A DNA stretch of 64,000 nucleotides, from positions 174,192 through 238,191 of the forward strand of contig NZ_JAFKCU010000006.1 of NCBI RefSeq assembly GCF_017254845.1. Reading direction: 5' to 3'. Positions 1 through 14,922 of the stretch are shown here, in pieces (position 1 is the first letter of the stretch; each line of letters opens with the position of its first letter). The notes under the pieces were generated by a model, which made no database searches, was not told where the DNA came from, and was given only the letters and a program-made list of their open reading frames with translations. This DNA comes from Algoriphagus pacificus (GTDB lineage: Bacteria > Bacteroidota > Bacteroidia > Cytophagales > Cyclobacteriaceae). The position numbers and the translations under genes are program-made.

Positions 1-7
1 CTGAAGA

Positions 8-44
8 AAAATGTCGGAGGTAGTCCGTAGGAGACCGCCATTTT
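8..44. repeat. Conserved stem-loop, copy 1
   Basis: Bases 8-17 pair with 35-44 (AAAATG, T, CGG against CCG, C, CATTTT): nine pairs and one T.C mismatch, closing a 17-nt loop AGGTAGTCCGTAGGAGA. The second copy at 11435-11471 has the same loop except for one base and the same T.C mismatch, but a different stem that still pairs. This suggests a selected structure acting as RNA or as folded single-stranded DNA. The strand of action is unknown. On the minus strand copy 2 lies just upstream of a small gene, which would fit a leader role. Confidence 0.65.
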
Positions 45-407
45 GCGGAAGGAAGAAGCGGATTTTTGACGATTCCAGCATCAGGGTTTCACCTTTGCTT
101 GGTTGGACGGTCTAACACCTGTTAAAACTGGAACGGATCAGACAAGCCACTCGGAAGAAAAACGCTCCCTGACGAAAGGAACAGAAAAGCGAAAAACGGC
201 TTGCCCCCCTAAAGGAGGATTGGGGCACTTATTCGAGAAGCGGGTTTCTATTGTTCTAGTCTCGACGGAACAAGGAAAGTAAAGCGGATTGAATGTGTGG
301 CCGTGTGGAGCTGAAAGCTATTTGACTGCAACGAAAGAATGGAGAGAAAGGAAAATTGCTGAAAGTGGAGATTCCGGCACCGGGCCACTGTTGAACTGAA
401 TGACCGC

Positions 408-434
408 CCCATTCCCAGACTTGTTGGGAATGGG
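408..434. repeat. Perfect 10-bp inverted repeat
   Basis: CCCATTCCCA (408-417) and TGGGAATGGG (425-434) are exact reverse complements with a 7-nt loop. No T-run follows on either strand, so it is not a standard intrinsic terminator. It lies in the untranslated stretch downstream of the RadC-like gene. It may be a transcript-end stabiliser or part of a structured RNA; the function is unknown. Confidence 0.6.
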
Positions 435-616
435 TTAAGGGAAGTGGAATAAAACTGTTGCCGTGGGGAATAGTTAATCTCTCCAGGAATAAAGCGCAGC
501 AAGCAGTCATTTAGAAAATGGCGCGCATAAAGCGGAATAAATGGAGTGGTTTATATGGGGAAAATGGCTTAAGGATAGTAGCGATAAGCCTTTCTTAGGA
601 AGTTCAAAAAGGAAGC

Positions 617-1078
617 CTAAAGCTTCCCTTCATCAGCGAAAGAGAAATACCCTTCACTGGTCACTATGATATGATCCAGAACTGGTAGATCCAGAAACTT
701 CCCAGCTTCAACTAGGCGTGTGGTCAATCTTTCATCCTGCGAACTTGGAAGTAGATTTCCACTCGGATGATTGTGTCCAAGGATTACAGACTGACAATTA
801 CTTTTTAATGCTGCTGCAAAGACCAATTTGGGATCCACTACCGTTCCGGCTGTCCCACCAGTTGAGATTTCTACTACTCCCAGAACTCTATTTCCTCTGT
901 TCAGCAGGATGATTTTAAAGGATTCAATAAATTGGATTTTATCCTCACCCCATACTTCCTTGAAAATCTGGTATGCACAGTTAGAACTACTCACTTTTCG
1001 AGCTTTTTGAACATCAATTTTGGGTCTGTAAACTAGCTCGATTTCGGCGACTTGGGAGGATGTTTTGATCGTTTCCAT
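617..1078 (-). CDS. RadC-like JAB domain protein
   Basis: A 153-residue protein of the RadC/JAB family (PF04002). The zinc-binding motif H102-N-H104-P-S-G and the later D115 match the JAMM metal site of the family. It covers essentially only the JAB domain and lacks the helix-hairpin-helix N-terminus of chromosomal RadC (about 220 residues), as is usual for copies on mobile elements. The biochemical role of these proteins is not settled; in mobile elements they are often listed among anti-restriction or accessory genes. It is transcribed away from the methyltransferase gene, 291 bp apart. The start is the first ATG of the frame. Family assignment is firm, function is not. Confidence 0.88.
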   Translation of the reverse strand: METIKTSSQVAEIELVYRPKIDVQKARKVSSSNCAYQIFKEVWGEDKIQFIESFKIILLNRGNRVLGVVEISTGGTAGTVVDPKLVFAAALKSNCQSVILGHNHPSGNLLPSSQDERLTTRLVEAGKFLDLPVLDHIIVTSEGYFSFADEGKL

Positions 1079-1369
1079 AATAATAACGGTTAGGAGTTAG
1101 AAATTAATTATGGTGCAACCCCAGCTTTTGAGCGATCAAGGCCAATTGGAAACTGAATAAATGAAAGAATGTGGGCAGGCGGTGTTTATGCGGTAGTCTA
1201 TTGGCCGCTTCAGATGTAAAAAAGGTAATTTTGAGGCATTATTGATATCACTTCCAGATTTTATAGTTCGCTCTACATTATTCGTGGTGGCATTCAGGCC
1301 AAACGTTATTATCTTAGGAATCTCCAAAAGCTACAGCAATTTTTGAGTAGCCTCAAATAAAAAAGTTAA

Positions 1370-4138
1370 ATGAACATAGCCCAGATTGAGTCAAACCTTC
1401 AAAATCTGATCAAGTCCTTTTCCAAAGAAACTTTCATTTACGATTTGCTCTTGGTGTATGGCCTGCCAAAAGCTTCCATCACAAGATTGCAAAAAGGAAA
1501 CCTTAACCTATCCAAATCAGAAGGGGAGATTTCCTGGAAAAAGAAACTTCGATTCCAAGAAGAGTATTCAGCCGACTTGCATCTAACTATTTCTGAGCTG
1601 GCCCAATCCATCAAGCATGAAGAGCGATTTGTAATCGTGACTGACTATGTGCTTTTCTTGGCAATTGACACCAAAACGGGTGAAAAACTGGACATAGAAA
1701 TCCAGGATTTGCCGAAGCATTTTGATTTCTTTCTGCCTTGGGCTGGGATGGAAAAAGCCCAACACCGAAATGAAAACCCCGCTGATGTCAAGGCCGCGGA
1801 ACGGATGGCAAAGCTTTTTGACGAGATCAAAAAAGACAATCCGGTCAAATCAGAGGAAGATTCTCATGCCCTTAACGTCTTTTTGACTAGACTTCTTTTT
1901 TGCTTTTTTGCTGAAGACACTCACATTTTTCAGGATGGGCAATTTACGAATGCGATCAGCTCTCACACTGCGGTAGATGGCAATGATCTTCGTCCCTATC
2001 TGGAGAGTTTATTTGAAGTGTTGAATACCGCATCAAAAGACCGAAAAGATCTACCGGCTTATTTAAACGCCTTCCCCTATGTCAATGGAGGCTTATTTAA
2101 GGATTCTTTCCAGGCACCTGAGTTTAACCGAAAATCTAGACAGCTGATTATCGACGCAGGGGAGATGAACTGGAAGGATATCAATCCGGATATTTTCGGG
2201 TCAATGTTCCAAGGAGTCATCGATCCTGAAAAAAGAGGAAGTCTTGGCGCACATTACACCTCTGTACCCAATATCATGAAAGTGATTGAGCCTCTCTTTC
2301 TGGATGAATTCAAGGATGAGTTTGAAAAAGCAAAACATAATCCCAAAAAGCTCAATGAACTGCTCTACCGTCTGAGTAAAATCAAAATCTTCGATCCGGC
2401 CTGTGGCAGTGGCAACTTCCTGATCATTGCCTACAAGGAACTCCGAAAACTGGAAATAGCGATTATCCATCACCTTCAGGACTTGCAAAAAGCTGCGGCT
2501 GGATTTAACAGTAAAAGCGAACAACTTTCCTTTATCCCTAAGGCACAACTTAGCCTTGCTGCATCTTTTCAAGTTGAGTTGTTTTCGAGAATACAACTTA
2601 GTCAGTTTTTCGGGATAGAGATCGATGACTTCGCTCATGAGATCGCACAACTATCGCTCTGGCTGGCGGAGCATCAGATGAATGTGGAATTCCATCGTGA
2701 ATTCGGAAAGACAAGTCCTACCCTCCCACTCAAGGAAGCTGGAAAGATTGTCTGCGGCAATGCCTGTAGGCTGGACTGGGAGGAAGTCTGTCCGAAGAAG
2801 GAAGGAGATGAAATTTATATATTGGGAAATCCTCCATACTTGGGAGCAAGAAATCAATCACTCTTACAAAAAAAGGATTTGGAGGATGTTTTTAGTAGCG
2901 CCTCGGGAACAAATAGTCTAGATTATATTTCGGCTTGGTTTATAAAAGCAGCAATATATAACGACAAGAATAATTCCCATGCTGCATTTGTTTCCACTAA
3001 TTCAATAATTCAAGGTGAACAAGCTGGAATATTATGGCCTCAAATACTTGCTGTTAACAATCAAATATTCTTTGCTCACACCTCTTTTCTTTGGAATAAT
3101 AGTGCTAAAAATCAGGCAGCGGTATACGTAGTAATTATTGGTATTGGAAAAGCATCAGTTAAAAAGAAAAAAATCTTTCTGGGTGATAATGTAAAGATGG
3201 TAGAAAACATTTCACCCTATTTGACAGAAGGATCTAATACAATCGTCGGCAAAAGATCAAAACCAAGAAATGGTCTGCCTTCATTAGTTTTTGGCAATCA
3301 GGGGATAGATGGGGGACACTTGATTTTATCTAATGAGGAACGAAAGTCCCTATTGAATAAAAATCCAGAATTAGAAAAATTCATCAGACCGTTATTTGGA
3401 GCAGAAGACTACATGAAAAATGAAAACAGATGGTGTATTTGGATAAATGAAAGGGATAAAGATGAAGCGCTGGCCTTTCCTGAAATTCAGAAAAGAGTAA
3501 AAAGTGTGGAAAATTATAGAAAAGGAGGTGGACAAGTAGCTAGATCGCTAGTCAATTTGTCTTATAGATTTCGATACATTCATGAGGCAAAAAGATCTAC
3601 TCTTATTTTACCTAGAACGACAACTGAAAGAAGAGACTATTTAGTAGTAGGTTTTTTGGACAAGAAAAATATTGTAACGGATGCTGCTCAAGTAATTTAT
3701 GACCCAGAGCCATTTGTATTTGGATTGTTATCATCAAAAATTCATATGATCTGGGTCAAGGCAACCGCAGGAAGGTTAAAAATGGACATTAGATATTCAA
3801 ATTCTATTTGTTACAATAATTTCCCCTTTCCTCCAATCTCGGACCAACGAAAGCAGGAAATCACCCAATGTGTCTTCCGTATTCTTGAGGAGCGAGAGCG
3901 TCACTCAGAGAAGACTCTAGCACAGCTGTACGACCCGGACAAAATGCCAGAAGGCTTAAGGGAAGCCCATCGGCAGAATGACCTAGCCATTGAGCGCTGC
4001 TACCGCAGTCGGCCGTTTGAATCCGACGAGGAACGTCTGGAATATCTATTCAAATTGTATGAGAAAATGATCGCAGAAGAGAAAGTAAAGGACAGTCTAT
4101 TTGAAAAAGAGAAAAAGGGAAGGAAGGTAAAAAAATGA
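1370..4138 (+). CDS. MmeI/YeeA-like adenine-specific DNA methyltransferase
   Basis: A 922-residue class I SAM-dependent DNA methyltransferase. Motif I is DPACGSGNF near residue 342 and motif IV is NPPY near residue 486, the signature of N6-adenine enzymes. The N-terminal 300 residues, central Rossmann fold and C-terminal 350 residues (target recognition) follow the MmeI-like layout. In MmeI the N-terminus carries a PD-(D/E)XK nuclease with an E-x-K. Here the matching stretch near residues 90-120 reads DIEIQDL, with no lysine at that place, so cleavage is probably lost and may be supplied by the GIY-YIG protein downstream (inference). Bacillus subtilis YeeA, next to a helicase and a T5orf172 protein, is the closest layout I recall. 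The last four bases overlap the next gene (ATGA), so translation is probably coupled. Confidence 0.88.
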   Translation: MNIAQIESNLQNLIKSFSKETFIYDLLLVYGLPKASITRLQKGNLNLSKSEGEISWKKKLRFQEEYSADLHLTISELAQSIKHEERFVIVTDYVLFLAIDTKTGEKLDIEIQDLPKHFDFFLPWAGMEKAQHRNENPADVKAAERMAKLFDEIKKDNPVKSEEDSHALNVFLTRLLFCFFAEDTHIFQDGQFTNAISSHTAVDGNDLRPYLESLFEVLNTASKDRKDLPAYLNAFPYVNGGLFKDSFQAPEFNRKSRQLIIDAGEMNWKDINPDIFGSMFQGVIDPEKRGSLGAHYTSVPNIMKVIEPLFLDEFKDEFEKAKHNPKKLNELLYRLSKIKIFDPACGSGNFLIIAYKELRKLEIAIIHHLQDLQKAAAGFNSKSEQLSFIPKAQLSLAASFQVELFSRIQLSQFFGIEIDDFAHEIAQLSLWLAEHQMNVEFHREFGKTSPTLPLKEAGKIVCGNACRLDWEEVCPKKEGDEIYILGNPPYLGARNQSLLQKKDLEDVFSSASGTNSLDYISAWFIKAAIYNDKNNSHAAFVSTNSIIQGEQAGILWPQILAVNNQIFFAHTSFLWNNSAKNQAAVYVVIIGIGKASVKKKKIFLGDNVKMVENISPYLTEGSNTIVGKRSKPRNGLPSLVFGNQGIDGGHLILSNEERKSLLNKNPELEKFIRPLFGAEDYMKNENRWCIWINERDKDEALAFPEIQKRVKSVENYRKGGGQVARSLVNLSYRFRYIHEAKRSTLILPRTTTERRDYLVVGFLDKKNIVTDAAQVIYDPEPFVFGLLSSKIHMIWVKATAGRLKMDIRYSNSICYNNFPFPPISDQRKQEITQCVFRILEERERHSEKTLAQLYDPDKMPEGLREAHRQNDLAIERCYRSRPFESDEERLEYLFKLYEKMIAEEKVKDSLFEKEKKGRKVKK

Positions 4139-5790
4139 TGGAAAGTCTACTAAGACAGTTTTTGGCCCAAGATACTGAAACGGAAATTTTGGAATTTAAA
4201 GTGGCAAAAACCCAATACGATAAAGACAAATTGGGCAAATACTTTTCAGCCCTAAGCAATGAGGCCAACCTTAAAAACAGGCCTAATGCTTGGTTTATTC
4301 TAGGAGTAAATGATAAAAAGCAAGTGGTGGGCACTGAAATCTCGGACAAGCAAATCAACGAGTACAAAAAAGAAGTGTCAGACCATACCTCACCAAATAT
4401 GACATTCCGAGAGATTCACAAGGTGGAAATCTAAGGAAAAAAGGTTTTGTTATGTGAGATACCTGCTGCAGCTAAAGGCATACCCGTTTCTTGGAAACGG
4501 CAATATTATGGTCGAGATGGCGAAAGTCTTGGAGTCTTGAGTCTTGATGAAATAGATAGGATCCGAGAGCAATCAAATGCTTTTGATTGGAGTGCCCAGA
4601 TAATAGACGGTGCTACCCTGAATGATTTATCACCGGAAGCAATCGCTGTTGCGAAACAAAAATTTGCAGAGAAGAATACTCACATTCACGAAGAGGTTTT
4701 AAAATGGGATACCTGCACTTTCTTGAACAAGGCCAAGATCACTATTCAGGGTAAAATCACAAATGCTGCAATTCTACTATTGGGGAAACCAGAATCAGAG
4801 CATTTCATCAGTCCTGCAACGGCAAAGATTTCTTGGATTTTGAAAGATAAAGATGGTTTGGAAAAAGACTATCAGCACTTCACCTGCCCTTTGATCCTTT
4901 CTGTCCAGTCGGTTTTTTCAAAAATCCGGAATCTCAATTACAGGTATTTGCAGGAAGGTAGCATTTTCCCGGAAGAAGTCAGCCAGTTTGACCCCTACAT
5001 CATAAGAGAAGCATTAAATAACTGCGTGGCTCATCAAGATTATACTTTAGGCGGGAAAATCAATGTAGTGGAGAGAGAAGATGGCGTTTTGACTTTTTCC
5101 AACTCCGGTAGCTTTATTCCTGGAACAGTCGAAAAGGTAATTGACTCCGATGCCCCAGAGACCAAGTATCGCAATCCCTTTTTAGCAAATGCAATGGTGG
5201 ACCTGAAGATGATTGATACAATCGGCAGTGGGATTCGGAAAATGTTTATCATTCAAAAAAGCAAATTCTTCCCCTTACCCGACTATGATTTCTCTGACAA
5301 TAAGGTTTCTGTCAAGATTACCGGGAAAGTGATGGATATTAATTACGCCCGGAAACTGGCACAGATGCCGGAGCTATCTCTTCATGATATCATGCTTTTG
5401 GACAAAGTTTCAAAAGGTAAAAAATTGACGAATCCGGATATTCAGCTATTGAAAAAAAGGGGCTTGATTGAAGGCAGAAAACCCAATTTTCATATTTCCG
5501 CCATAGTTGCTAGGCGATCTAATCAAAAAGCAGATTACATCAAACTGAAAGGAATTGATGATCAATATGCAATGGAATTGATTCGGGAATATTTGAACAA
5601 ATTTAAAACTGCCTCTAGGGGAGAATTTGAGGAGTTTCTTTTGGAAAAACTTGGAGATAGATTTTCTGAGGATCAGAAAAAACATAAAATCAAAAACCTC
5701 CTCCAAAAAATGAAAAAACAGGGAGAAATTAGATTGAATAAAGATCGAAGATGGGAACATGATCCAAGCTATGAGTATGGCGGGATTTAA
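4135..5790 (+). pseudogene. Schlafen AlbA_2 / HATPase_c_4 protein, broken by an in-frame stop
   Basis: One frame encodes a whole AlbA_2-type protein of about 551 residues, but a TAA at 4432-4434 cuts it after residue 99. Reading through gives KVEI-stop-GKKVLLCEIP, exactly where the family continues, so this looks like a single GAA-to-TAA change and not a frameshift. The first part holds the Schlafen AlbA_2 domain (ETEILEFK). The second holds a GHKL/HATPase_c_4 ATPase (EALNNCVAHQDY as N-box, IGSGIRKM later) and a C-terminal winged-helix region ending near 5790. The downstream part could start at a TTG (4447) or later, giving up to 447 residues, but without the nucleic-acid-binding half. Such proteins are regulators or defence components. 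The start overlaps the methyltransferase stop by four bases. Confidence 0.82.
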
Positions 5791-5811
5791 AGCTTTCTAG
5801 ACCACAGGAGA

Positions 5812-5914
5812 TTTAGACGAGTTTAGACGGGATTTAGACGAAATTTAGACGAGAATAACGCGCATCATTCTGATTATCATTGTTTTAACAAAACCAAAGA
5901 TTGGATTTAGACGA
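5812..5914 (+). promoter_or_regulatory. Phased TTTAGACGA repeats upstream of the 167-aa gene
   Basis: TTTAGACGA or a one-base variant begins at 5812, 5822, 5833, 5844 and 5906. The first four are spaced 10, 11 and 11 bp, one helical turn each, so they face the same side of DNA. The fifth ends six bases before the ATG at 5920. This is the layout of an operator array for an oligomeric DNA-binding protein. A similar array precedes the helicase gene. Confidence 0.7.
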
Positions 5915-5919
5915 AAAAA

Positions 5920-6423
5920 ATGGCAACAGTTCAAACAAAAGTTTTAAGTGAGATCAAAGAGTCTAGAATGATTTCAACTACCAAGAGTACTCCAGATGAA
6001 GAGGTTGCAGTACTTCAAAAGTTGGAAGCCTTTGGGGTACTTCAGAAAGAAAACCATTCATTTAGACCCACAGCACGCTTCTATAAGTATGCTGATCAAT
6101 TAATTGAGCAAGAAATTCCAGTAGAGAAGTTTGCCTTTGATGATCTACCAAGTTCCCAACAAACCTTCAATAATACAATTCATGCTCAAAGCATTGGACA
6201 AATAAATCAAGGCTCTGGAAATTTCAGTTTTGAACAGATTAACATTGAAATAGTGAAAGAATCATTGAAAAATGAGTTGAGTGAAGATCAAATGGACGAG
6301 GTCATGCAGGCACTAAAAGAAAAGGGGAAAAGTGGTGTTTTTCAAAAGTTGAAAAGCTTTGGAAGTGACGTACTTGCGAATGTAATCGCTGGAATTCTTT
6401 CTAATCCGGGACTCTATGGATAA
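5920..6423 (+). CDS. Small protein with winged-helix-like N-terminus
   Basis: A 167-residue protein I cannot assign to a named family. Residues 1-70 have the helix pattern of a winged helix (VLQKLEAFGVL, then a basic and aromatic stretch). Residues 85-115 are polar and Asn/Gln/Gly-rich (TIHAQSIGQINQGSGN), a beta-type linker resembling those in some bacterial defence and regulator proteins. The C-terminus is helical and ends in a hydrophobic, glycine-containing tail. It lies between the broken AlbA_2 gene and the helicase, with phased repeats on both sides. I infer that it may bind the TTTAGACGA repeats and regulate the cluster; nothing beyond position supports this. Confidence 0.75.
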   Translation: MATVQTKVLSEIKESRMISTTKSTPDEEVAVLQKLEAFGVLQKENHSFRPTARFYKYADQLIEQEIPVEKFAFDDLPSSQQTFNNTIHAQSIGQINQGSGNFSFEQINIEIVKESLKNELSEDQMDEVMQALKEKGKSGVFQKLKSFGSDVLANVIAGILSNPGLYG

Positions 6424-6471
6424 GAGAAAATCTAACTGGCTAAAAAGAAATAAAATATAAATAAATTATTT

Positions 6472-6506
6472 AAAAAGTGCTTTAGAACTCATTCAAGCCA
6501 CTTTTT
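6472..6506 (+). terminator. Intrinsic terminator after the 167-aa gene
   Basis: AAAAAGTGCTT pairs with AAG-C-CACTTTTT (one bulged C) around an 11-nt loop, and more T-rich sequence follows (CTCTTTTT). It lies 49 bp after the stop codon and separates this gene from the helicase, which then has its own repeat-bearing upstream region. Confidence 0.6.
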
Positions 6507-6633
6507 CTCTTTTTGCTGTAAAAACAAATAAAAATAAAGTAAGAGAATAAGGCTGATGTTTAGCAAGTGATGGCATTAAATTCTTATAGAATGGTTAGGT
6601 GACAGAAGTCAGAATATCGAAAAGTAGAAAAAC

Positions 6634-6757
6634 TCGTCTAATTCAATATTTAGTTTATTAGGTTAGACGAACTTTAGACGAGAAAACACCTAATATTTTT
6701 GATAAACAGCGACTTAAAAAATTAAACTTAGACGGATTTTAGATATACTTTAGACCA
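6634..6757 (+). promoter_or_regulatory. Phased TTTAGACGA repeats upstream of the helicase gene
   Basis: Near-copies of TTTAGACGA begin at 6662 (GTTAGACGA), 6673 (exact), 6727 (CTTAGACGG), 6738 (TTTAGATAT) and 6749 (TTTAGACCA). An inverted copy, TCGTCTAA, lies at 6634-6641. Spacings of 11, 54, 11 and 11 bp keep the copies on one face of the helix. The last copy ends 14 bases before the helicase ATG. Same motif and phasing as at 5812-5914, so one regulator probably controls both transcripts. Confidence 0.7.
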
Positions 6758-6771
6758 TTAACCTTTTTGAA

Positions 6772-8700
6772 ATGCCCAATATAGTAGAAGTAAATTATCA
6801 CCAGACTGGCAAAAGTACCCAAACTAACCCTATGGGAATGCGCGATATGCAAGCCCGGGCATATGAGGCTAGACACGCCCAATATTTATTGCTTAAAGCC
6901 CCACCTGCATCCGGGAAATCCAGGGCATTGATGTTTTTGGGACTTGATAAACTTTTCTACCAAGGCATCAAAAAAGTGATTGTCGCTGTACCGGAACGCT
7001 CTATTGGGAGTTCCTTTGCCCACACCGATCTAAAATCCCATGGATTTTTTGCAGACTGGGAGCCAAACGATGCCTATAATCTGTGCATGCCCGGAAGTGA
7101 TGGGAGCATGAGTAAAGTCAAGGCTTTTCACAATTTCATGGCAAACGAAGAGAAGCTTTTGATCTGTACCCATGCCACACTGAGATTTGCATCAGAAGAA
7201 TTGGAAGAAAAAGTATTTGACAATTGCCTCCTTGCTATAGATGAATTTCACCATGTTTCCGCGGATATCAATAATCGTCTGGGTGATATCCTTCGGAATA
7301 TCATGCAAAAGTCTTCGGCGCACATTATTGCGATGACCGGCTCCTATTTCCGGGGTGATAGCGTGCCGGTACTTCCTCCGGAAGACGAAGCCAAGTTTGA
7401 AAAAGTCACCTACAACTATTACGAACAGCTGAACGGATATAATTACCTGAAATCCCTAGGAATTGGCTACCACTTTTATCAGGGCAGATACACAGAAGCC
7501 ATTTTGGAAGTATTGGATACGGACAAGAAGACGATTCTTCATATCCCAAATGTGAACTCAGGTGAATCCACTAAGGACAAACACAATGAAGTAGACTTTA
7601 TTCTGGATGCGATCGGAGAAGTTATCAAGCAAGACACTGAAACTGGTGTGATCTATATCAAACGGCACTCAGATGGCAAAATCCTGAAAGTTGCTGACTT
7701 GGTAGAGGATAATTCCAGAGAGCGGGATAAAATCGTAGAATACCTGAGGAAAAGCAAAGACGAGGAGGATATGGATTTGATCATTGCTTTGGGTATGGCT
7801 AAAGAAGGATTTGATTGGCCTTATTGCGAACATGCCCTGACTGTTGGTTACCGTGGATCCTTGACTGAAATTATCCAGATTATTGGCCGATGCACACGTG
7901 ACAGTAGCAATAAAACACATGCACAGTTTACTAATTTAATTGCCCAGCCAGATGCTGCGGATGATCAGGTAAAATTATCCGTCAACAATATGCTGAAAGC
8001 TATTACAGCTTCTCTACTGATGGAGCAGGTCTTGGCTCCCAACTGGAAATTTAAAACCAAACTATCCGATGAGGATAAGGCAAAGCCAGGCGAACTCAAA
8101 ATACGTGGACTGAAAGAACCAAGCTCCAAAAGAGTAAAAGACATTATTGAATCGGACCTAAATGACCTGAAGGCGGTAATTCTTCAGGATGATCAAATGC
8201 TCAAGGCTATGCCAGGGAATGTAGATCCAGAGGTAATCAATAAAGTTCTAATCCCGAAGATCATTCAAGTGAGATACCCTGACCTCTCGGCCGATGAAGT
8301 AGAAGAAGTTCGCCAGCAAGTAGTGGTCGATTCTGTGATTAAAAACGGTGAAGTCAAAGAAACTGGGGACAAACGCTTTATCCGAATGGCCAATACATTT
8401 GTGAATATTGATGACCTTCATATCGACCTGATTGATCAGGTTAATCCTTTTCAGAAAGCTTTTGAGATCTTGTCAAAATCTGTGACCACCAAAGTTCTAA
8501 AAGTGATACAGGAAACTATAGAAGCAACTCGAATTTCAATCAGTGAGGAAGAGGTTTTACTTCTATACCCAAAAATCAAGGAATTTATAACCATGTATGG
8601 CAAAAAGCCAAACATCAATTCCGGAGATCCATTGGAAAGAAGAATGGCTGAGGCGATCATTTACATCAATGAACAAAGAAGGAAGCATGCAGCATCGTAA
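6772..8700 (+). CDS. DEAD/DEAH-box superfamily 2 helicase
   Basis: A 642-residue SF2 helicase-like ATPase. Walker A is APPASGKS near residues 43-50, Walker B/DEAH is DEFH near 157-160, motif III is TGS near 188, and the arginine-finger motif VI is QIIGRCTRD near 369-377. The two RecA-like lobes take up about 420 residues; the rest is helical and unassigned. It resembles helicases placed beside YeeA/MmeI-like methyltransferases and is likely the translocating or DNA-unwinding part of the restriction-like cluster (inference). The frame overlaps the start of the nuclease gene. Upstream phased repeats suggest separate regulation from the methyltransferase, which could allow modification to come before restriction. 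Confidence 0.87.
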   Translation: MPNIVEVNYHQTGKSTQTNPMGMRDMQARAYEARHAQYLLLKAPPASGKSRALMFLGLDKLFYQGIKKVIVAVPERSIGSSFAHTDLKSHGFFADWEPNDAYNLCMPGSDGSMSKVKAFHNFMANEEKLLICTHATLRFASEELEEKVFDNCLLAIDEFHHVSADINNRLGDILRNIMQKSSAHIIAMTGSYFRGDSVPVLPPEDEAKFEKVTYNYYEQLNGYNYLKSLGIGYHFYQGRYTEAILEVLDTDKKTILHIPNVNSGESTKDKHNEVDFILDAIGEVIKQDTETGVIYIKRHSDGKILKVADLVEDNSRERDKIVEYLRKSKDEEDMDLIIALGMAKEGFDWPYCEHALTVGYRGSLTEIIQIIGRCTRDSSNKTHAQFTNLIAQPDAADDQVKLSVNNMLKAITASLLMEQVLAPNWKFKTKLSDEDKAKPGELKIRGLKEPSSKRVKDIIESDLNDLKAVILQDDQMLKAMPGNVDPEVINKVLIPKIIQVRYPDLSADEVEEVRQQVVVDSVIKNGEVKETGDKRFIRMANTFVNIDDLHIDLIDQVNPFQKAFEILSKSVTTKVLKVIQETIEATRISISEEEVLLLYPKIKEFITMYGKKPNINSGDPLERRMAEAIIYINEQRRKHAAS

Positions 8701-9934
8701 AAAGTATTCTTCTTTGGATGAAATTTTTAATGATGAGGAGTTTCATCTGATTGAAGAGAAAAAGAAAGTTTCGTCAACTAGTACTCCTGATGACCGATTA
8801 CTTGCATCATTTCACCAGATCAATGACTTTTTTGCAAAAAATGGAAAAGCCCCAGAAGCGAATATCTCCAATGTATCTGAATACCAGCTTTACTCACGGT
8901 TGAAAAGTATTCGTGAGGATGCTTCTAAAGTCGAAATGCTGCTTCCTGAAGATATCCACGGCCTGCTGCAAAAGAAAGATACTTTTTCGGTAGAAGAACC
9001 GAGTGGGCAATATCATAAGAAGCCGAAAAAAGAAATAAAGTCCATCGCTGACATATTGGATGATGATTTGGACATTTTGGGAGACGATGCCGGACTTTTT
9101 GATTTCAAACATACTCCAAAACCAGAAGAACGGGCAAGTGCCGATTTTGTAGCCAAAAGAAAACCATGCAAAGATTTCGCTACCTATGAACCGCTTTTCA
9201 AAGAAGTGCAAAAGGATTTGGCAGAGGGCAAGAGGAAACTGATAGATTTTAAAGTGGATAATTTGAAAGAGGGTGCCTTTTATGTACATAATGGAGTTCT
9301 GTTTCTATTGGAGCATGTAAACATTTCACAAAAAGAGCATTACAGAGAGGATGGCACCAGAGTCCGTGAAGATGGAAGGACAAGGTGTATTTTTGAAAAT
9401 GGCACCCAATCCAATATGCTCAAACGGTCTGTCGAAAAAATTCTTTATGCCAATGGGAAGGTAGTCACTGAGAATTTTGAAAAATTAAACCAGTCATTCC
9501 AGGAAAACTTTGGGATGATTACCGAAGAAGACAAAGAATCAGGCTTTATCTACGTGCTGAAATCTCTGAGTTCCAATCCAGAGATCGCATCAATAGACAA
9601 CCTATTTAAGATCGGCTATTCAAAAATCGCGGTTGAAGACCGGATCAAAAATGCATCAAAAGAACCAACCTATCTAATGGCGGATGTGGAATACATCGCC
9701 GGATGGAAATGCTATAATATGAACACCCAGAAATTCGAACAGCTGATCCATAATTTCTTTGGTTCTTCCTGTCTGAACATTGACGTATTTGATGATAAAG
9801 GAAAAAGATATACTCCTAGAGAATGGTTTATTGCCCCTTACGAAGTGATCGAACAGGTCATTGGTTTAATTATCAGTGGTGAGGTGGTGAAGTATCGGTA
9901 TGATGCGGAGGAGGAGAGGATTATCTTGAAATAA
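8687..9934 (+). CDS. T5orf172-type GIY-YIG nuclease
   Basis: The C-terminal 130 residues form a GIY-YIG fold of the T5orf172/MUG113 type: FIYVLKS near residue 286, LFKIGYSK about 20 residues later, a conserved Arg in VEDRIKNAS, and the catalytic-type Glu in KFEQLIHNFF, followed by PREWF. The N-terminal 280 residues are charged, contain acidic runs and have no domain I recognise. The open frame extends upstream into the helicase gene to 8597; I choose the ATG at 8687 (14-bp overlap with the helicase stop, AAGGA just upstream). ATG at 8669 is also possible. It is the probable DNA-cutting component of the cluster, because the methyltransferase seems to lack its nuclease motif. Confidence 0.85.
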   Translation: MQHRKKYSSLDEIFNDEEFHLIEEKKKVSSTSTPDDRLLASFHQINDFFAKNGKAPEANISNVSEYQLYSRLKSIREDASKVEMLLPEDIHGLLQKKDTFSVEEPSGQYHKKPKKEIKSIADILDDDLDILGDDAGLFDFKHTPKPEERASADFVAKRKPCKDFATYEPLFKEVQKDLAEGKRKLIDFKVDNLKEGAFYVHNGVLFLLEHVNISQKEHYREDGTRVREDGRTRCIFENGTQSNMLKRSVEKILYANGKVVTENFEKLNQSFQENFGMITEEDKESGFIYVLKSLSSNPEIASIDNLFKIGYSKIAVEDRIKNASKEPTYLMADVEYIAGWKCYNMNTQKFEQLIHNFFGSSCLNIDVFDDKGKRYTPREWFIAPYEVIEQVIGLIISGEVVKYRYDAEEERIILK

Positions 9935-9947
9935 AGGCTTATAAGTT

Positions 9948-10556
9948 ATGCTTTATAAAACTAGTGACCGACTAGCTGAAAAACTGCTTACACTTCCAGA
10001 GTCAGGTATGGGATATCAGATAATAAAAACAAAATCATTCACGGGGTCTAAACAATATATCTTTTTTAATGGCATCGTTGGCAGCGATTTTGGATACCCT
10101 GGTAGTTTCAGCAACTATGAATTAAAGGCCATTGATTTTGATATTGATATTTCTAATCTTGTCATAGATAAAACAAGAGGAGCTATTGACTCTTCATTTG
10201 AGACAACAAATGGTTCTGAAATTCAGAAATTCGTCAGGTTGTCTGCATTCGAAAATGATTTTCGTGTTGATACAGAAAGCGGTAGATTGTTACCGGGGAG
10301 TTTTACAACTGATCTTGAAGATTTTTTAACAATGACAATTCCTTTCAATAATTTTGACCCGATAGCTTATTACAGCTTACCCAACCCTTTACCAATTAAG
10401 TGGCTATTCTACTTTAAATCAATCGCCGGTGATACTTTTCAAAGAGGAACTGTTCAGCCGGCATTTGGACAAAATGGAGGTGGAAGAGAATACTATTTTA
10501 AAAATGGCACTTCTGAAAAATCCTTGATTTCAGTAAATCCATTTGGTTACTCTTAA
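9948..10556 (+). CDS. Unknown protein with a C-terminal FGQ-GGG motif
   Basis: A 202-residue soluble protein that I do not recognise. It is rich in aromatic residues and glycine, with no signal peptide or membrane segment. Near residues 170-180 it has PAFGQNGGGREY followed by FKNGT. Similar FGQ-GGG loops occur near the C-terminus of some NAD-degrading TNT-type and other polymorphic toxins, so an enzymatic or toxin-like role is possible, but the resemblance is short. It starts 13 bp after the nuclease gene and ends 3 bp before the next gene, so the three are probably co-transcribed. Confidence 0.75.
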   Translation: MLYKTSDRLAEKLLTLPESGMGYQIIKTKSFTGSKQYIFFNGIVGSDFGYPGSFSNYELKAIDFDIDISNLVIDKTRGAIDSSFETTNGSEIQKFVRLSAFENDFRVDTESGRLLPGSFTTDLEDFLTMTIPFNNFDPIAYYSLPNPLPIKWLFYFKSIAGDTFQRGTVQPAFGQNGGGREYYFKNGTSEKSLISVNPFGYS

Positions 10557-10559
10557 ACT

Positions 10560-10982
10560 ATGGAACAAATAATTAGTACTTTGACAAATCCTGAAGATCC
10601 TAATTTCTGGACAGCGTTAGGTGTTGTAGTTACCGCCTTGGTAGCTTTAGGTGGATTATTGGGTTGGGTTTTGACTAACATCCTCAATAATAGGGTTTCT
10701 AAAACATCAAAGATCCTCATTCAGGCAATGATTGAGATTTTTCTCGATTGGGTGAAAGTAAAAAGTAAAAGTCAGACTGTTGATGATGAAAATATAAGAA
10801 TATGGATTTCAGAAACAGGCGGTGCCATTTTAACAGGTCGATCTTACATGGTTTTTAAAAGATTCTTAAAAGAGCTCAAAAAGTCAGCCTACAAAGATTT
10901 ACTGACTCCTGATGAAAACACTTATAAATCGTGGGTAAGCAAAAGTGATTCCAAGCCGACCTGGGAACGAATTGATTGGTAA
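10560..10982 (+). CDS. Small single-span membrane protein
   Basis: A 140-residue protein with one strong hydrophobic segment at about residues 17-42 (LGVVVTALVALGGLLGWVL) after a short polar N-terminus. A mostly helical, basic cytoplasmic domain follows, containing two tryptophans near the end. I know no family. It follows the FGQ-GGG protein by three bases, which suggests that the two work together. A membrane-anchored partner of a possible effector would fit an abortive defence or toxin-immunity role, but that is inference only. Confidence 0.72.
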   Translation: MEQIISTLTNPEDPNFWTALGVVVTALVALGGLLGWVLTNILNNRVSKTSKILIQAMIEIFLDWVKVKSKSQTVDDENIRIWISETGGAILTGRSYMVFKRFLKELKKSAYKDLLTPDENTYKSWVSKSDSKPTWERIDW

Positions 10983-11117
10983 TCACATTTAAAATCCCCT
11001 CCTATGGAAACAGTTCCTTAAGTAGGAAACTTTCCATTTAATCCGTCACAAATCTTGACGTTTTTTGTAACAGAATTAAATAAAATGAATTGCTATTAAA
11101 GTGATTGGAAAATCAAA

Positions 11118-11137
11118 AAAAGCCCCGAAGGGCTTTT
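11118..11137 (-). terminator. Intrinsic terminator of the 73-aa gene
   Basis: AAAAGCCC and GGGCTTTT form an 8-bp stem around CGAA. Read on the minus strand it is followed by a run of T (11115-11121 as A on the plus strand). It ends three bases before the stop codon of the leftward small gene and may act in both directions, also ending the rightward defence cluster. Confidence 0.8.
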
Positions 11138-11139
11138 AA

Positions 11140-11361
11140 TCAAGACTCTTCCGATTCCGGCTCTTTGACTGAAACATACACCGTGTGAGTTTTGCCGTAT
11201 TGGTCTGGTTCTTTCAGTTTGGCGACGTTGAACTTGACGTAGGTTTCTCCTTCGTATTCGAAGCTGTGGTTTTGAAGTTCAGCCATGTTGAGGCTTACTT
11301 CGACGATGTCCATGTTTTCGACTTGTTTGCCTTTTCCGATGTACTTTTTTGAAAATGCCAT
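11140..11361 (-). CDS. Small conserved-type protein of mobile elements
   Basis: A 73-residue acidic/basic protein starting MAFSKKYIGKGKQVENMDIV and ending in a Glu/Ser-rich tail. The pattern is beta-rich (YEGETYVKFNVAKL, HTVYVSVKEP), as in small OB-like or single-domain beta proteins. I have the impression that similar small proteins accompany Bacteroidetes conjugative elements, but I cannot name a family. It has its own terminator and lies downstream, on its own strand, of the second copy of the conserved stem-loop, which may be part of its leader. Confidence 0.7.
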   Translation of the reverse strand: MAFSKKYIGKGKQVENMDIVEVSLNMAELQNHSFEYEGETYVKFNVAKLKEPDQYGKTHTVYVSVKEPESEES

Positions 11362-11799
11362 AGATTTTTGGTTTTAGTTAAAATTTATGCATGTCTTTTA
11401 GGAAGGCTTGGTGAGTGGATAAAAATTAGAATTCAAAAACTGGGAGGTAGTCCGTAGGAAACCCCGTTTTTATAAGATATTCTGCTAGCAGCCCCAATTT
11501 TTAGAAACTGACAAGCGGACTGACCTTTGTGCATACAATTGAACAAAACCGGAATTTGGCATATAAATTCATAACGAATCAGTTGAAAGAAATGTACGAG
11601 CCATTATGGAATCTACTTGAAGAAATAATAGAGATTTCAAAAACCATTCATATTAAATACAAAAGCCCCTCATAAGCAAAGAACTGATCTTGAATCCTTT
11701 GGTTTAACCTTAGGATTTATCCTTAAAAAAGCTGGAAATTTTCATAAAAAAAGAAATACTAACAATTTCAAAAATCTCATATTTTTAGACAAAAAGAAA
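11362..11799. other. Intergenic region with stem-loop and short open frame
   Basis: Between the leftward 73-aa gene and the rightward 281-aa gene. It holds the second conserved stem-loop (11435-11471) and a short rightward frame (11529-11675, 48 codons from a GTG) of helical, protein-like composition (NQLKEMYEPLWNLLEEIIEI). That frame is probably a remnant or a small protein and I do not call it a gene. TTTAGACAA (11784-11792) lies just before the ATG of the next gene, resembling the cluster repeat but present only once. Confidence 0.5.
11435..11471. repeat. Conserved stem-loop, copy 2
   Basis: Bases 11435-11444 pair with 11462-11471 (AAAAAC, T, GGG against CCC, C, GTTTTT), closing the loop AGGTAGTCCGTAGGAAA. 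Compared with copy 1 at 8-44, 16 of 17 loop bases are the same and the T.C mismatch is kept. Two stem pairs differ but remain complementary (T-A/G-C become A-T/C-G, and C-G becomes G-C). On the minus strand it lies 74 bp upstream of the 73-aa gene. Confidence 0.65.
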
Positions 11800-12645
11800 A
11801 TGAAAAAATTATTCGCTAGCTTAATTGAAAGAGTAAAAAATAAAGAGACCAGCTTAACATTTTATGAACAACTTGTTGACAAAACTTGGCTAAAAATAGA
11901 TGAATCCAGAAATATACTCAGACAACTAGAATTCCAAAGGAATGGTGAATTATTGGATTCTAATCATGGAAATGTCACAAGGAAAAAGTGGGAATTAACG
12001 GCTTCTGGAAAAATTATTATCTCCTTTGAAGGCAAAGAGCAGCTCTTTTATGCGACATTTTCAGAAATATTCAAGCTTACTTTGATAAAATCTGGAAGTA
12101 TAGACTCATCTGAGACGTTTTTAGAAGAAAAATATGTAATTAATAGTGTAAAGGAGTTTTTACAACAAGAAAATGAAAGACTGATTCAAGAAGAACAAAA
12201 GAAAATCGAGGAAGCAAGAAAAAGAGAGGAAGCTATTGATTTGCAATTATTTAAAAGTGGAATTCCAAATCCAAAGCAGTACAGAGAAGTAATGAATACA
12301 ATGGCGAACCTTAGCAAAGATATTGACAAAAGGTTTGACTCAAGGATAAATGATTTTTCTAAAAATCCACCAAAAATTGAGAACCTTATTAAGTTCTATG
12401 ATTTTTTATCAACACATGAGCAAAACAATGATAAACCATTTTTTTCTAGCAGGACCACATTAGAATCTCAGAAAGACGACTGTATTAAAGTTATAAGGGA
12501 AATAGATTCGAAAATTGATCATATTAATAATTCAAATCCTAATTCCCAATCAGAATCAATAGAACTCAGGAGAAAAAAAAGAAACCTAATTCAATCCAAG
12601 GAAATATATCAAGCATACTATAATTATCTCCTAGAAAAATCTTAA
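11800..12645 (+). CDS. Coiled-coil protein of unknown function
   Basis: A 281-residue, lysine/glutamate-rich protein. Residues 1-100 look globular (a beta-rich part with WELTASGKIIISF). Residues 125-150 form a charged helix (ENERLIQEEQKKIEEARKR), and the C-terminal 60 residues form another helical region, so a coiled coil is likely. No catalytic motif is visible. It stands alone, AT-richer than the cluster to its left, which suggests separate acquisition. I do not recognise it. Confidence 0.72.
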   Translation: MKKLFASLIERVKNKETSLTFYEQLVDKTWLKIDESRNILRQLEFQRNGELLDSNHGNVTRKKWELTASGKIIISFEGKEQLFYATFSEIFKLTLIKSGSIDSSETFLEEKYVINSVKEFLQQENERLIQEEQKKIEEARKREEAIDLQLFKSGIPNPKQYREVMNTMANLSKDIDKRFDSRINDFSKNPPKIENLIKFYDFLSTHEQNNDKPFFSSRTTLESQKDDCIKVIREIDSKIDHINNSNPNSQSESIELRRKKRNLIQSKEIYQAYYNYLLEKS

Positions 12646-13349: not shown

Positions 13350-14027
13350 TTATTCTAAGTCCTCTTTAACCTGTTTATTAAGTTGATAAAATGACTCTGC
13401 TCCCTTCTTTCTGGGCTTGAATGTCCTTACTGTTTGTAATACTCCTTGGGATATGCAATAGGCTCGGAGTGAAAAGGAAGTTATTGGCTCTACTGAATCT
13501 TTTTCAGTTTTAAGGTTCTTCAAATGGATTGATCCATTTGAGAGTCGGTATGAACAATTTCTTTTATGGATTAAGTCCTGAATTTTGCAATCCATCACAC
13601 GTCCCAAAATCGAGGAACTGAAAACCGTATTCACCTTGCTTTTCGCATGGATTTCCTCCAATGATTTTTTCAAAAGATCTTCATCAAACTTTGCTCCCAC
13701 AACCATAAAACCCGCCTCCTCAAAAGCGATTCTTGCCTTATATTGGTTGACAAAAAATATCAATGAAGCATAGGAATCCGAGACAAAAACCGAGCGTGTA
13801 GTCTCAGAAATATTAAGAATTGAAATACCATAGGATGCACATTTGCTTCGGTAAAGGCTAAGCACTTCCTTATCTACAACTCCACCGTCTTGATCAAAAA
13901 AATCAAAATAGATCTGCCCCTTCTCGTCTTGGATGGCATTCTTGGAAAAAAGGCGCTGAATATCCATTTCAACACCCTTGTATGTCAAAATGTCAAATGT
14001 CCCGTTCCTGGTCATTGTCTTGCTCAC
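13350..14027 (-). CDS. Unknown protein at the end of the tra locus
   Basis: A 225-residue protein without signal peptide or membrane segment and with no motif that I can name. It begins inside the 3' end of the DUF3945/4099-like gene (35-bp overlap), so the two are translationally linked. The fold looks alpha/beta (ISILNISETTRSVFVSDSYASLIFF). The C-terminus is basic (FKPRKKGAES). Its position suggests a role in the transferred element, perhaps DNA processing, but there is no direct evidence. An internal Met (MDIQRLF, residue 21) is an alternative start that would remove the overlap. Confidence 0.68.
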   Translation of the reverse strand: MSKTMTRNGTFDILTYKGVEMDIQRLFSKNAIQDEKGQIYFDFFDQDGGVVDKEVLSLYRSKCASYGISILNISETTRSVFVSDSYASLIFFVNQYKARIAFEEAGFMVVGAKFDEDLLKKSLEEIHAKSKVNTVFSSSILGRVMDCKIQDLIHKRNCSYRLSNGSIHLKNLKTEKDSVEPITSFSLRAYCISQGVLQTVRTFKPRKKGAESFYQLNKQVKEDLE

Positions 14028-14922
14028 GATTTCGCATTTTTGGATTCTTTCCCTCCTCGCTATCGATACTGTTCAGTCGCTTGATTTTGTTGATATCAAA
14101 ATCATCTCTGACTTCTTTGGGTAGGTTCGGATCTGCAGAAATTTTGGAATACTCCTCCTTGATATTGTTTAGATCCCGGACTGCATCCTTGTCATTCGGA
14201 TTCTTGGAAATCCTCCGTTCCACTTGTTTTTGAACTTCTTTGATGGCCTGCAAATACCCTTCGCTAAAGGATTTTTCCTCCTGACTTTTCTTACCCAACA
14301 TTTTCTCAACACCTGTGATCAATAAGTAGGAAAGACCTCCATCTATCAACACCGAAAGGATTAAACCCCGATTATTGGACCGAATTCCTTTAGGTGCGGA
14401 AGGGGAAAGTTGAAATTCAGTTCCATCGGCCAATTGCACGGTATCCCCTTCTTTATATTTCTTTTTTTGCTGAGGACTAAGCTTTTCTCCATTGACTTCC
14501 TGTGGAGCTTTGATATCCCTGGGATTGTAGGAAAGAAATTGCTTGGTTCTGTGATCATACTCTATAATCTCAGATTGGAAATTTCCTTCCTTGTCCACGT
14601 AGCTTTTCTTCAAGTTTGCCAATTCCTTTTTAACCAATTGATTTCGTTCTGATTCACTCAAGTTTGGATGAGCTCTTGCCTCTCTATAGACCGGGTCAAT
14701 CCGCAATGCTGGCTTACCATCTTCGCCTCGAACAATTGATAGCCTTGCCGGTAACTTATCAACCTGAACATCCTTTCCCTTCAAATCTTTCAATTCGACG
14801 ATATCGGTCATTTTCCCATTTTTTAAAGCATGGATTTCTTTTTCCGGAATGGTAAATTTTCCGTCTTTGACAACTCCGAAAATTTCCAGATCCTTCATTG
14901 GTAATACATTTTGATTTCTCAT
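13993..14922 (-). CDS. DUF3945/DUF4099-like mobile-element protein
   Basis: A 309-residue protein. The N-terminal region (FGVVKDGKFTIPEKEIHALKNG, then LPARLSIVRGEDGKPALRI) and the middle part (LSPQQKKKYKEGDTVQLADGTEF) resemble the DUF4099 and DUF3945 modules common in Bacteroidetes conjugative elements. A hydrophobic segment near residues 188-207 (LILSVLIDGGLSYLLITGV) may span or touch the membrane. The C-terminal 100 residues are charged and helical, so a coiled coil is possible. The molecular function of these families is unknown. It lies directly after the M23 peptidase gene. Confidence 0.7.
   Translation of the reverse strand: MRNQNVLPMKDLEIFGVVKDGKFTIPEKEIHALKNGKMTDIVELKDLKGKDVQVDKLPARLSIVRGEDGKPALRIDPVYREARAHPNLSESERNQLVKKELANLKKSYVDKEGNFQSEIIEYDHRTKQFLSYNPRDIKAPQEVNGEKLSPQQKKKYKEGDTVQLADGTEFQLSPSAPKGIRSNNRGLILSVLIDGGLSYLLITGVEKMLGKKSQEEKSFSEGYLQAIKEVQKQVERRISKNPNDKDAVRDLNNIKEEYSKISADPNLPKEVRDDFDINKIKRLNSIDSEEGKNPKMRNREQDNDQERDI

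Follow-up and report, generated by a model that had tools for sequence, protein, structure and literature searches.

Repeat arrays at Schlafen-like AlbA_2/HATPase genes point to a probable portable control module in YeeABC-type restriction loci

Why would a restriction locus carry a Schlafen-like gene that gives way to short direct repeats just ahead of its helicase and nuclease? The locus lies in a stretch of 64,000 nucleotides from Algoriphagus pacificus (contig NZ_JAFKCU010000006.1, positions 174,192 to 238,191; hereafter the window), and the original prediction, made from the letters alone, described it as a restriction-like cluster of seven genes: a methyltransferase, an AlbA_2/HATPase gene (the AlbA gene below), a small putative regulator (g4), a helicase, a GIY-YIG nuclease and two further genes (g6 and g7), with two operator arrays and flanking hairpins. 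Open frames confirm the seven co-oriented gene units at their predicted positions, and family scans confirm the identities of the methyltransferase, AlbA_2/HATPase, helicase and nuclease. What is new here is the AlbA gene with its own array, more than the list of genes, and we propose with moderate confidence that the two form a portable DNA-binding control module, self-addressed and set ahead of restriction genes, which is the best reading of the data.

The core of the window is the DnmA-YeeB-YeeC (YeeABC) set of Bacillus subtilis, a known yet poorly understood restriction type; as originally predicted, the families are the same (MmeI-family methyltransferase, helicase and T5orf172 nuclease), and the window has them in the same order (PMC7261158, PMC9973331). 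The available parts of these two accounts describe no cargo between the genes, and DnmA is reported without the MmeI nuclease motif. In the tests that the available part of PMC9973331 reports, B. subtilis deletions had neither a restriction nor a phage phenotype; the same paper also tells of Vibrio crassostreae homologues that affect some phages.

With the nuclease as bait we gathered 110 other loci, 80 from genome contigs (the best 80 of at least 501), 22 from viral contigs and 8 from genomes of the phylum, where 9 of 395 genomes match the nuclease, the window's included; some of these loci end early at contig ends. Of the resulting 111 sources, 107 have the helicase and 88 the methyltransferase, and the remaining genes are variable or unlinked, so that the predicted fixed seven-gene system does not hold. 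Methyltransferase and helicase are same-strand neighbours in 86 sources including the window, a set that retains redundancy (L011 and L092, L089 and L090, and L044 and L045 look identical or nearly so). The gap between them is below 250 bp, counted as empty, in 40 of the 86, and is wider and holds cargo in 46: this stretch between the methyltransferase and the restriction arm is a variable slot for exchangeable cargo. The AlbA gene, predicted to be an extension of the core, does recur with it, but as one of several alternatives (16/86); a Pfam scan of ten cluster representatives of the other cargo gave RhuM, PDDEXK_3, AAA_13/AAA_21, YhcG/DUF1016, Fic, SMC-like, FRG, DUF3800, 23S-IVP and KilA-N. 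Because slot content varies across loci, the seven-gene cluster is read as the YeeABC trio with one choice of cargo. Individual loci show further arrangements. Long runs of TTAACAATTAACC and ACTAACC repeats lie around a 23S-IVP-like slot gene in L019 (6846-7908). Plasmids of Morganella (L181) and Proteus (L176) have a separate gene of about 95 amino acids between helicase and nuclease; an insertion sequence separates methyltransferase from helicase in L181, and IS26 and a hypothetical gene lie ahead of the helicase in L176. Several Acinetobacter plasmids among the matches listed have a partial helicase match only.

The two arrays predicted in the window, built of TTTAGACG, exist; their role as operators we infer. 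Exact copies of TTTAGACG occur six times in the 64 kb, all inside 5812-6680 (five in 5812-5913, one at 6673-6680), where 1.45 would be expected, a count reached in none of 100 shuffles of the window, and one-mismatch copies lie at 6662, 6727 and 6749. Pairs of copies with 0 to 20 bases between them occur nowhere else in the 5.28-Mb genome. Relatives carry different short repeats at the same place: ATTAAATA in L021, L024 and L042, AAAATAA in L025, L046 and L084, TTAGATAA in L058 and TATTTGAT in L076. TTTAGAC-type arrays occur in L043 (Lunatimonas), L066 (Albibacterium), L010 and L038. A second repeat type, TTATGTGA/TTATTTGA, is seen in L043 (7592-8049), L053 (7810-8052) and L076 (7817-8032); it follows another AlbA subtype in L053 and L076, and in L043 it stands beside TTTAGACG despite an AlbA protein of the first subtype, as if modules had been layered.

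Are such repeats a property of AlbA genes, or of the loci at large? We scored repeated 8-mers in the 300 bp at the gene 3′ end against shuffles that keep dinucleotides only. In a first sample, 29 of 43 AlbA loci reached p ≤ 0.05, against 3/43 upstream of the AlbA gene, 6/43 at +260 to +560, 4/51 at the 3′ ends of other cargo and 9/83 at those of nuclease genes. This sample omits the window's own copies (L120, L150-L152), the duplicate L121 and the partial genes L101, L047, L147 and L148, and includes two broken frames (L132, L133). A second sample, consisting of 12 loci from 11 of 274 genomes of another class (that of L071's genome, Photobacterium) and two plasmid loci, and omitting L174, a second gene piece in the genome of L163, gave 7/14, with controls at 1/13 and 2/12. 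Together, 36 of 57 AlbA loci have 3′-end repeats against 7-17% in controls (40/57 when rerun with other shuffles), and 23 of 30 AlbA protein clusters (70% identity) have at least one member with a significant array. In the 300 bp before the helicase, repeats are found in 11 of 16 loci with AlbA, 3 of 30 with other cargo and 2 of 40 with an empty slot, and before the methyltransferase in 0/13, 2/25 and 2/36, respectively. The other-cargo scorers before the helicase include L101, which keeps a C-terminal AlbA remnant, and L036, which has no detectable remnant.

The spacing of the repeats would suit a protein ligand. Across 55 non-redundant loci, the distances that separate repeated 7-mers show an 11.0-bp period (power 0.54, where the highest of 200 shuffles reached 0.33), and distances of 40-100 bp alone give 10.9 bp (p 0.01), the trace expected from a protein reading successive turns on one DNA face; ten of the 42 motif-bearing loci, the window included, have an outlying copy 54-66 bp away. 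Which protein? Array similarity, taken over the first 200 bp, tracks the identity of the AlbA proteins (rho 0.27, Mantel p 0.011, 136 pairs from 17 loci, with the window represented by the C-terminal half of its gene only) and does not track the methyltransferase, its target-recognition domain (TRD), the helicase or the nuclease (Mantel p 0.51, 0.41, 0.33 and 0.30). The helicases of L010 and L084 are 89% identical and their AlbA proteins 20%, and the arrays differ, TTTAGAC against AAAATAA; L038 and L019 likewise have different arrays, with helicases at 93% and AlbA proteins at 17%. From these comparisons, the AlbA gene and its array appear to have been exchanged as one unit.

Units of gene and array are present in type I and type III-like operons as well. 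They follow HsdS in L123, L124 and L129, with HSDR_N next in L123, and lie beside N6_N4 methyltransferases in L126; the motifs outside the YeeABC system include AGAAGAGA (L123), TTATAAGA (L124), TAAGAGAA (L129, 17 times with one mismatch allowed), TTGCAGAA (L140-L142), TTTAGTCG (L135) and ACGCAAGT (L149). The order methyltransferase-AlbA-helicase is seen in a plasmid operon (L153, array at p 0.012); on a Phaeobacter plasmid the helicase in this order is DEAD/DEAH, and a ACGAAAGAA-like motif stands in two copies. An Actibacterium plasmid keeps the YeeABC order, its slot is filled by an AlbA gene, and an 18-bp repeat recurs at a distance of 100 bp. In neighbour scans, which covered 22 and 23 of 26 loci and took, on either side, the longest frame within about 1.5 kb, not always the adjacent one, the frames upstream of AlbA outside YeeABC included Methylase_S (4/23), another AlbA/HATPase (3-4/23) and Fic-like (3/23), and those downstream included N6_N4_Mtase (5/22), DUF1016/YhcG (5 and 4 of 22) and HSDR_N (2/22). 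Other neighbours look unrelated to restriction, for instance an aromatic lyase in L149, where the array is present all the same. The features by which an autoregulated operator would be known, namely adjacent repeats, helical phasing and a motif that tracks the protein, were found in the majority of loci.

Linkage, repeats, 11-bp phasing, covariation with AlbA and recurrence in other restriction operons are thus in hand, and a working mechanism can be sketched around them. The MmeI-family enzyme would recognise and methylate its site, and the helicase and GIY-YIG nuclease would form the restriction arm. The AlbA protein would bind its cognate repeats through C-terminal winged helices, multimerise along one DNA face and possibly loop across the spacer; once bound, it would repress or time its own transcription and that of the restriction genes that follow, with its ATP state as the switch for some putative signal. 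The repeats would act as operators around a promoter-like spacer common to aligned relatives, where the promoter reading uses a Bacteroidota consensus. In a model of the L043 protein (mean predicted local distance difference test, pLDDT, 82) two C-terminal segments read as winged helices, and its closest solved fold is PDB 3lmm (Foldseek E 5e-22), which is DIP2311 of Corynebacterium diphtheriae, titled uncharacterised and 18% identical to the AlbA protein.

Several observations weigh against this control module. AlbA loci that miss p 0.05 number 14 of 43 and 7 of 14 in the two samples, and L125, L139, L154, L166, L167, L169 and L173 have no repeated non-overlapping 8-mer; the AlbA gene of L125 lies between HsdS and an HsdR-like frame. 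Several arrays are AT-rich, many loci come from one genus (g59), tandem arrays by themselves contribute to long-range phasing, and among more distant AlbA proteins in viral contigs only 1 of 7 has an array. L036 has TTTAGACG-type copies with no AlbA remnant detectable. A sigma-70 scan found no excess of promoters (24, against 26.6 in shuffles). Exact TTTAGACG pairs occur in no other of the 395 phylum genomes; the motif is therefore local, and only the array principle recurs. Finally, the window's own AlbA gene is interrupted.

That interruption concerns a gene originally described as one. Its AlbA_2 and HATPase parts do share one reading frame, but an in-frame TAA at 4432-4434 splits them; the frame continues through 4435-5790, with a TTG at 4447 and the next in-frame ATG 253 codons on. 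The L043 relative, 80% identical over the whole gene, has no stop at this position. In-frame stops occur in 6 of 41 AlbA matches, the window and five others, and loss of the AlbA gene is therefore not rare. Since the gene carries this stop, the switch may have been lost in the A. pacificus genome, and regulation with it.

Could the AlbA protein instead be a weapon? It would then chiefly be a backup Schlafen RNase effector, acting by abortive infection and guarded by restriction, whose array does no more than tune its own expression, an account we hold possible but doubtful. A profile search with AlbA finds SLFN14, SLFN11 and Schlafen 8 (E 3e-6 to 7e-3), and E14 and E19, which align with the presumably catalytic E206 and E211 of SLFN14, are largely kept (E14 in 22 of 23 proteins; the second position E in 20 and D in 3). 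Schlafen-HATPase-winged helix-turn-helix (wHTH) genes beside BREX are read as RNase effectors in the available text of PMC12839542. The third acidic position, however, is D in 14 of 23 (the window among them), N in 8 and a gap in 1; the N-bearing proteins include those of L043, L066, L010, L038, L037 and L058, where the array reaches p ≤ 0.01 in five and 0.06 in the sixth. Nor would a protein that is just an effector need an array on both sides of the point where the restriction genes begin. The two roles may coexist, and the arrays speak for DNA binding at the home locus as a core activity of AlbA. A bolder extension of the control module, speculative and in our view unlikely, is that AlbA_2/HATPase/wHTH proteins are widespread self-addressed guards: tethered through its winged helices to its own helically phased array in a restriction operon, such a protein would keep the restriction arm low, and if the array were vacated or its transcription disturbed, through phage take-over, anti-restriction or DNA loss, the ATPase would switch, restriction would be released and the RNase armed where its active site is intact. 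Array and protein would coevolve into many orthogonal pairs, hence the fit of the unit into type I, type III-like and MmeI-type operons.

The remaining alternatives assign the repeats to other owners. As scars or sites of recombination for cargo exchange, an improbable role, they would suit a slot whose cargo clearly is exchanged, array pieces that stand in different order in L053, L043 and the window, and the C-terminal AlbA remnants retained in L101 and L067, but neither the 11-bp phasing, nor a motif that follows the protein, nor the rarity of repeats at other cargo would be expected. Operators of g4 are suggested by its predicted N-terminal winged helix and its place between arrays 1 and 2, yet g4 is found in the slot of just 3 of 86 loci (the window, L053 and L059), the TTTAGAC-type arrays listed above occur without it, and the slot of L059, which has g4 and no AlbA, lacks any intergenic stretch as long as 80 bp; on this distribution we rejected g4 as owner of the arrays, a role that is very improbable. 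Hardly credible, too, are recognition sites of the neighbouring methyltransferase whose methylation tunes the operon, although TTAGAC fits the NNNRAC look of MmeI-family sites. GACGAG, the site marked by B. subtilis DnmA, is contained in three of the array copies here (5812, 5844 and 6673), and DnmA methylation alters promoters in that species, according to the available part of PMC7261158. Array similarity is nevertheless uncorrelated with the methyltransferase (rho -0.004) or its TRD (rho 0.02), which leaves the TTAGAC and GACGAG hypothesis without support; loci that have a methyltransferase of this kind but an empty slot rarely have repeats before the helicase, and arrays also accompany AlbA genes in type I and type III-like operons.

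How does this compare with known systems? RptR, in the part of PMC12255303 available, regulates a restriction locus at which it binds a few direct repeats in a row, and its type I islands embed other defence genes between hsdS and hsdR, a hotspot of which the cargo slot of the YeeABC set is reminiscent. RptR is a four-helix protein of 79 amino acids with one conserved palindrome, TAGCTA, in the operon promoter, whereas the module described here has a Schlafen/HATPase/wHTH protein of 550 amino acids, many motifs, and an array at the gene 3′ end inside the operon; in the window the array consensus is TTTAGACG and the regulator candidates are the AlbA_2/HATPase and a winged-helix protein, features unlike those of RptR, for which itself no search was made. 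Restriction-modification operons that carry RhuM, Doc and PrrC are described in PMC3710099, as far as its available part goes. The genes beside BREX in PMC12839542 share the domain architecture and the tie to DNA-modifying defence, and are found there, with related systems included, in at least 1017 taxa; the main text, in the form available, never uses 'operator' and uses 'repeats' twice. Mostly open-access literature, represented by titles and abstract openings, makes no mention of repeat arrays at AlbA_2/HATPase genes, a coverage that does not establish their absence from print.

Among the other members of the predicted cluster, the small putative regulator g4 is too rare to be a fixed one. 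Its AlphaFold2 model has a mean pLDDT of 66.6 (82-87 over the first 60 residues), and Foldseek placed winged-helix proteins mostly at the top, none at E ≤ 0.001. A plasmid search with g4 gave no match, and 2 of 395 phylum genomes matched: that of the window and a second, whose C-terminal relative lies apart from the system. In L178, residues 109-166 of g4 are related to a protein with another N-terminus, and the 3-kb locus has no match to the methyltransferase, helicase or nuclease of the YeeABC system. The last two genes, g6 and g7, occur in none of the 110 other loci and in none of 57 other related genomes each; with no linkage elsewhere, the seven-gene unit is rejected for them. The C-terminus of g6 is weakly like a TNT domain (E 0.0084, below cut-off) and the N-terminus of g7 resembles a membrane anchor by eye; possibly they are an effector and its partner. 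As for the predicted hairpins, there is a perfect 8-bp stem at 11118-11137 and an inverted repeat of 73% at 1140-1206, but the number of terminator-like sites across 1-11800 does not exceed chance (10, against 10.3 in shuffles).

Further out, a 37-nt imperfect direct repeat (81%) at 8-44 and 11435-11471, with a 21-nt core of which the 5.28-Mb genome has exactly two copies, brackets the cluster together with the RadC gene and a 73-amino-acid gene; its outer arms look able to pair, and it could mark either island ends or an RNA element of the minus-strand genes. It has no Rfam match, and the window has none at the gathering threshold. The RadC-like and DUF4099/DUF3945 genes are suggestive of a mobile element around the cluster.

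Within the core (Table 1), the methyltransferase has five MmeI domains above cut-off (Pfam MmeI_Mtase 351 bits, MmeI_TRD 234 bits), a 614.6-bit alignment to the MmeI structure 5hr4 that begins at residue 85, and the motifs DPACGSGNF and NPPY. The nuclease motif pattern D-x(8-12)-E-x-K has a single match in its first 160 residues (139-154, none earlier, in a search with no positive control), which aligns where MmeI itself has no D..ExK. The defence annotation suggested as a check, run with PADLOC, gave a strong match for the methyltransferase alone, REase_MTase_IIG (type IIG). Methylase_S had no match at E ≤ 0.1 among the cluster proteins, the recognition domain being inside the methyltransferase; PglZ and BrxC families were absent from the ten proteins scanned, and the methyltransferase resembles PglX weakly. 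Catalytic motifs are present in all three core proteins: the helicase translation contains PASGKS, DEFH and QIIGRCTR, and the nuclease GFIYVL, KIGYS, RIKNA and EQLIHNFF, with G286, Y289, K308, G310, R319, E351 and H355 invariant in seven aligned sequences; the nuclease probably starts near 8687, not 8597, judging by where relatives begin to align. Sequence searches against solved structures found no match for the helicase (E ≤ 0.001) or the nuclease (E ≤ 0.1).

Table 1. Features of the locus, in window coordinates
Feature	Position	Strand	Basis or remark
RadC-like gene	617-1078	-	
MmeI-family adenine DNA methyltransferase with target-recognition domain (DnmA/YeeA-like)	1370..4138	+	Pfam, structure alignment, motifs
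AlbA_2 (Schlafen-like) N-terminal part of the putative control gene	4135..4434	+	SLFN_AlbA_2 42.7 bits
HATPase_c_4 and C-terminal winged-helix part, same gene	4447..5790	+	HATPase_c_4 40.8 bits
Array 1, four TTTAGACG copies spaced 10, 11 and 11 bp	5812..5851	+	
Array 1 spacer, promoter-like sequence between copies	5852..5905	+	alignment, 7 stretches from 5 sources
Array 1, outlying copy right before g4	5906..5913	+	62 bp on
g4, 167 amino acids, predicted N-terminal winged helix, helical C-terminus; rare companion	5920..6423	+	relatives, AlphaFold2 model
Array 2, one inverted copy, 1 mismatch	6635..6642	-	
Array 2, two copies (GTTAGACG, TTTAGACG) 11 bp apart	6662..6680	+	
Array 2, more copies (CTTAGACG; degenerate; TTTAGACC) ahead of the helicase gene	6727..6756	+	
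Superfamily 2 helicase (YeeB-like)	6772..8700	+	DEAD, ResIII, Helicase_C above cut-off
T5orf172/GIY-YIG nuclease (YeeC-like)	~8687..9934	+	MUG113 53 bits, T5orf172 46 bits
g6, unlinked neighbour, not part of the system	9948..10556	+	no family above cut-off
g7, unlinked neighbour, not part of the system	10560..10982	+	no family
DUF4099/DUF3945 gene	13993-14922	-	

Restriction and BREX-like loci often carry Schlafen-HATPase-wHTH proteins as extras, and the papers cited here, in their available parts, do not say which DNA the winged helices of these proteins bind. Should it be the arrays, AlbA proteins become directly testable. Were the control module to prove true, these loci would hold a natural set of swappable, probably orthogonal DNA-binding switches, and would suggest how restriction arms stay restrained when loci enter new hosts.

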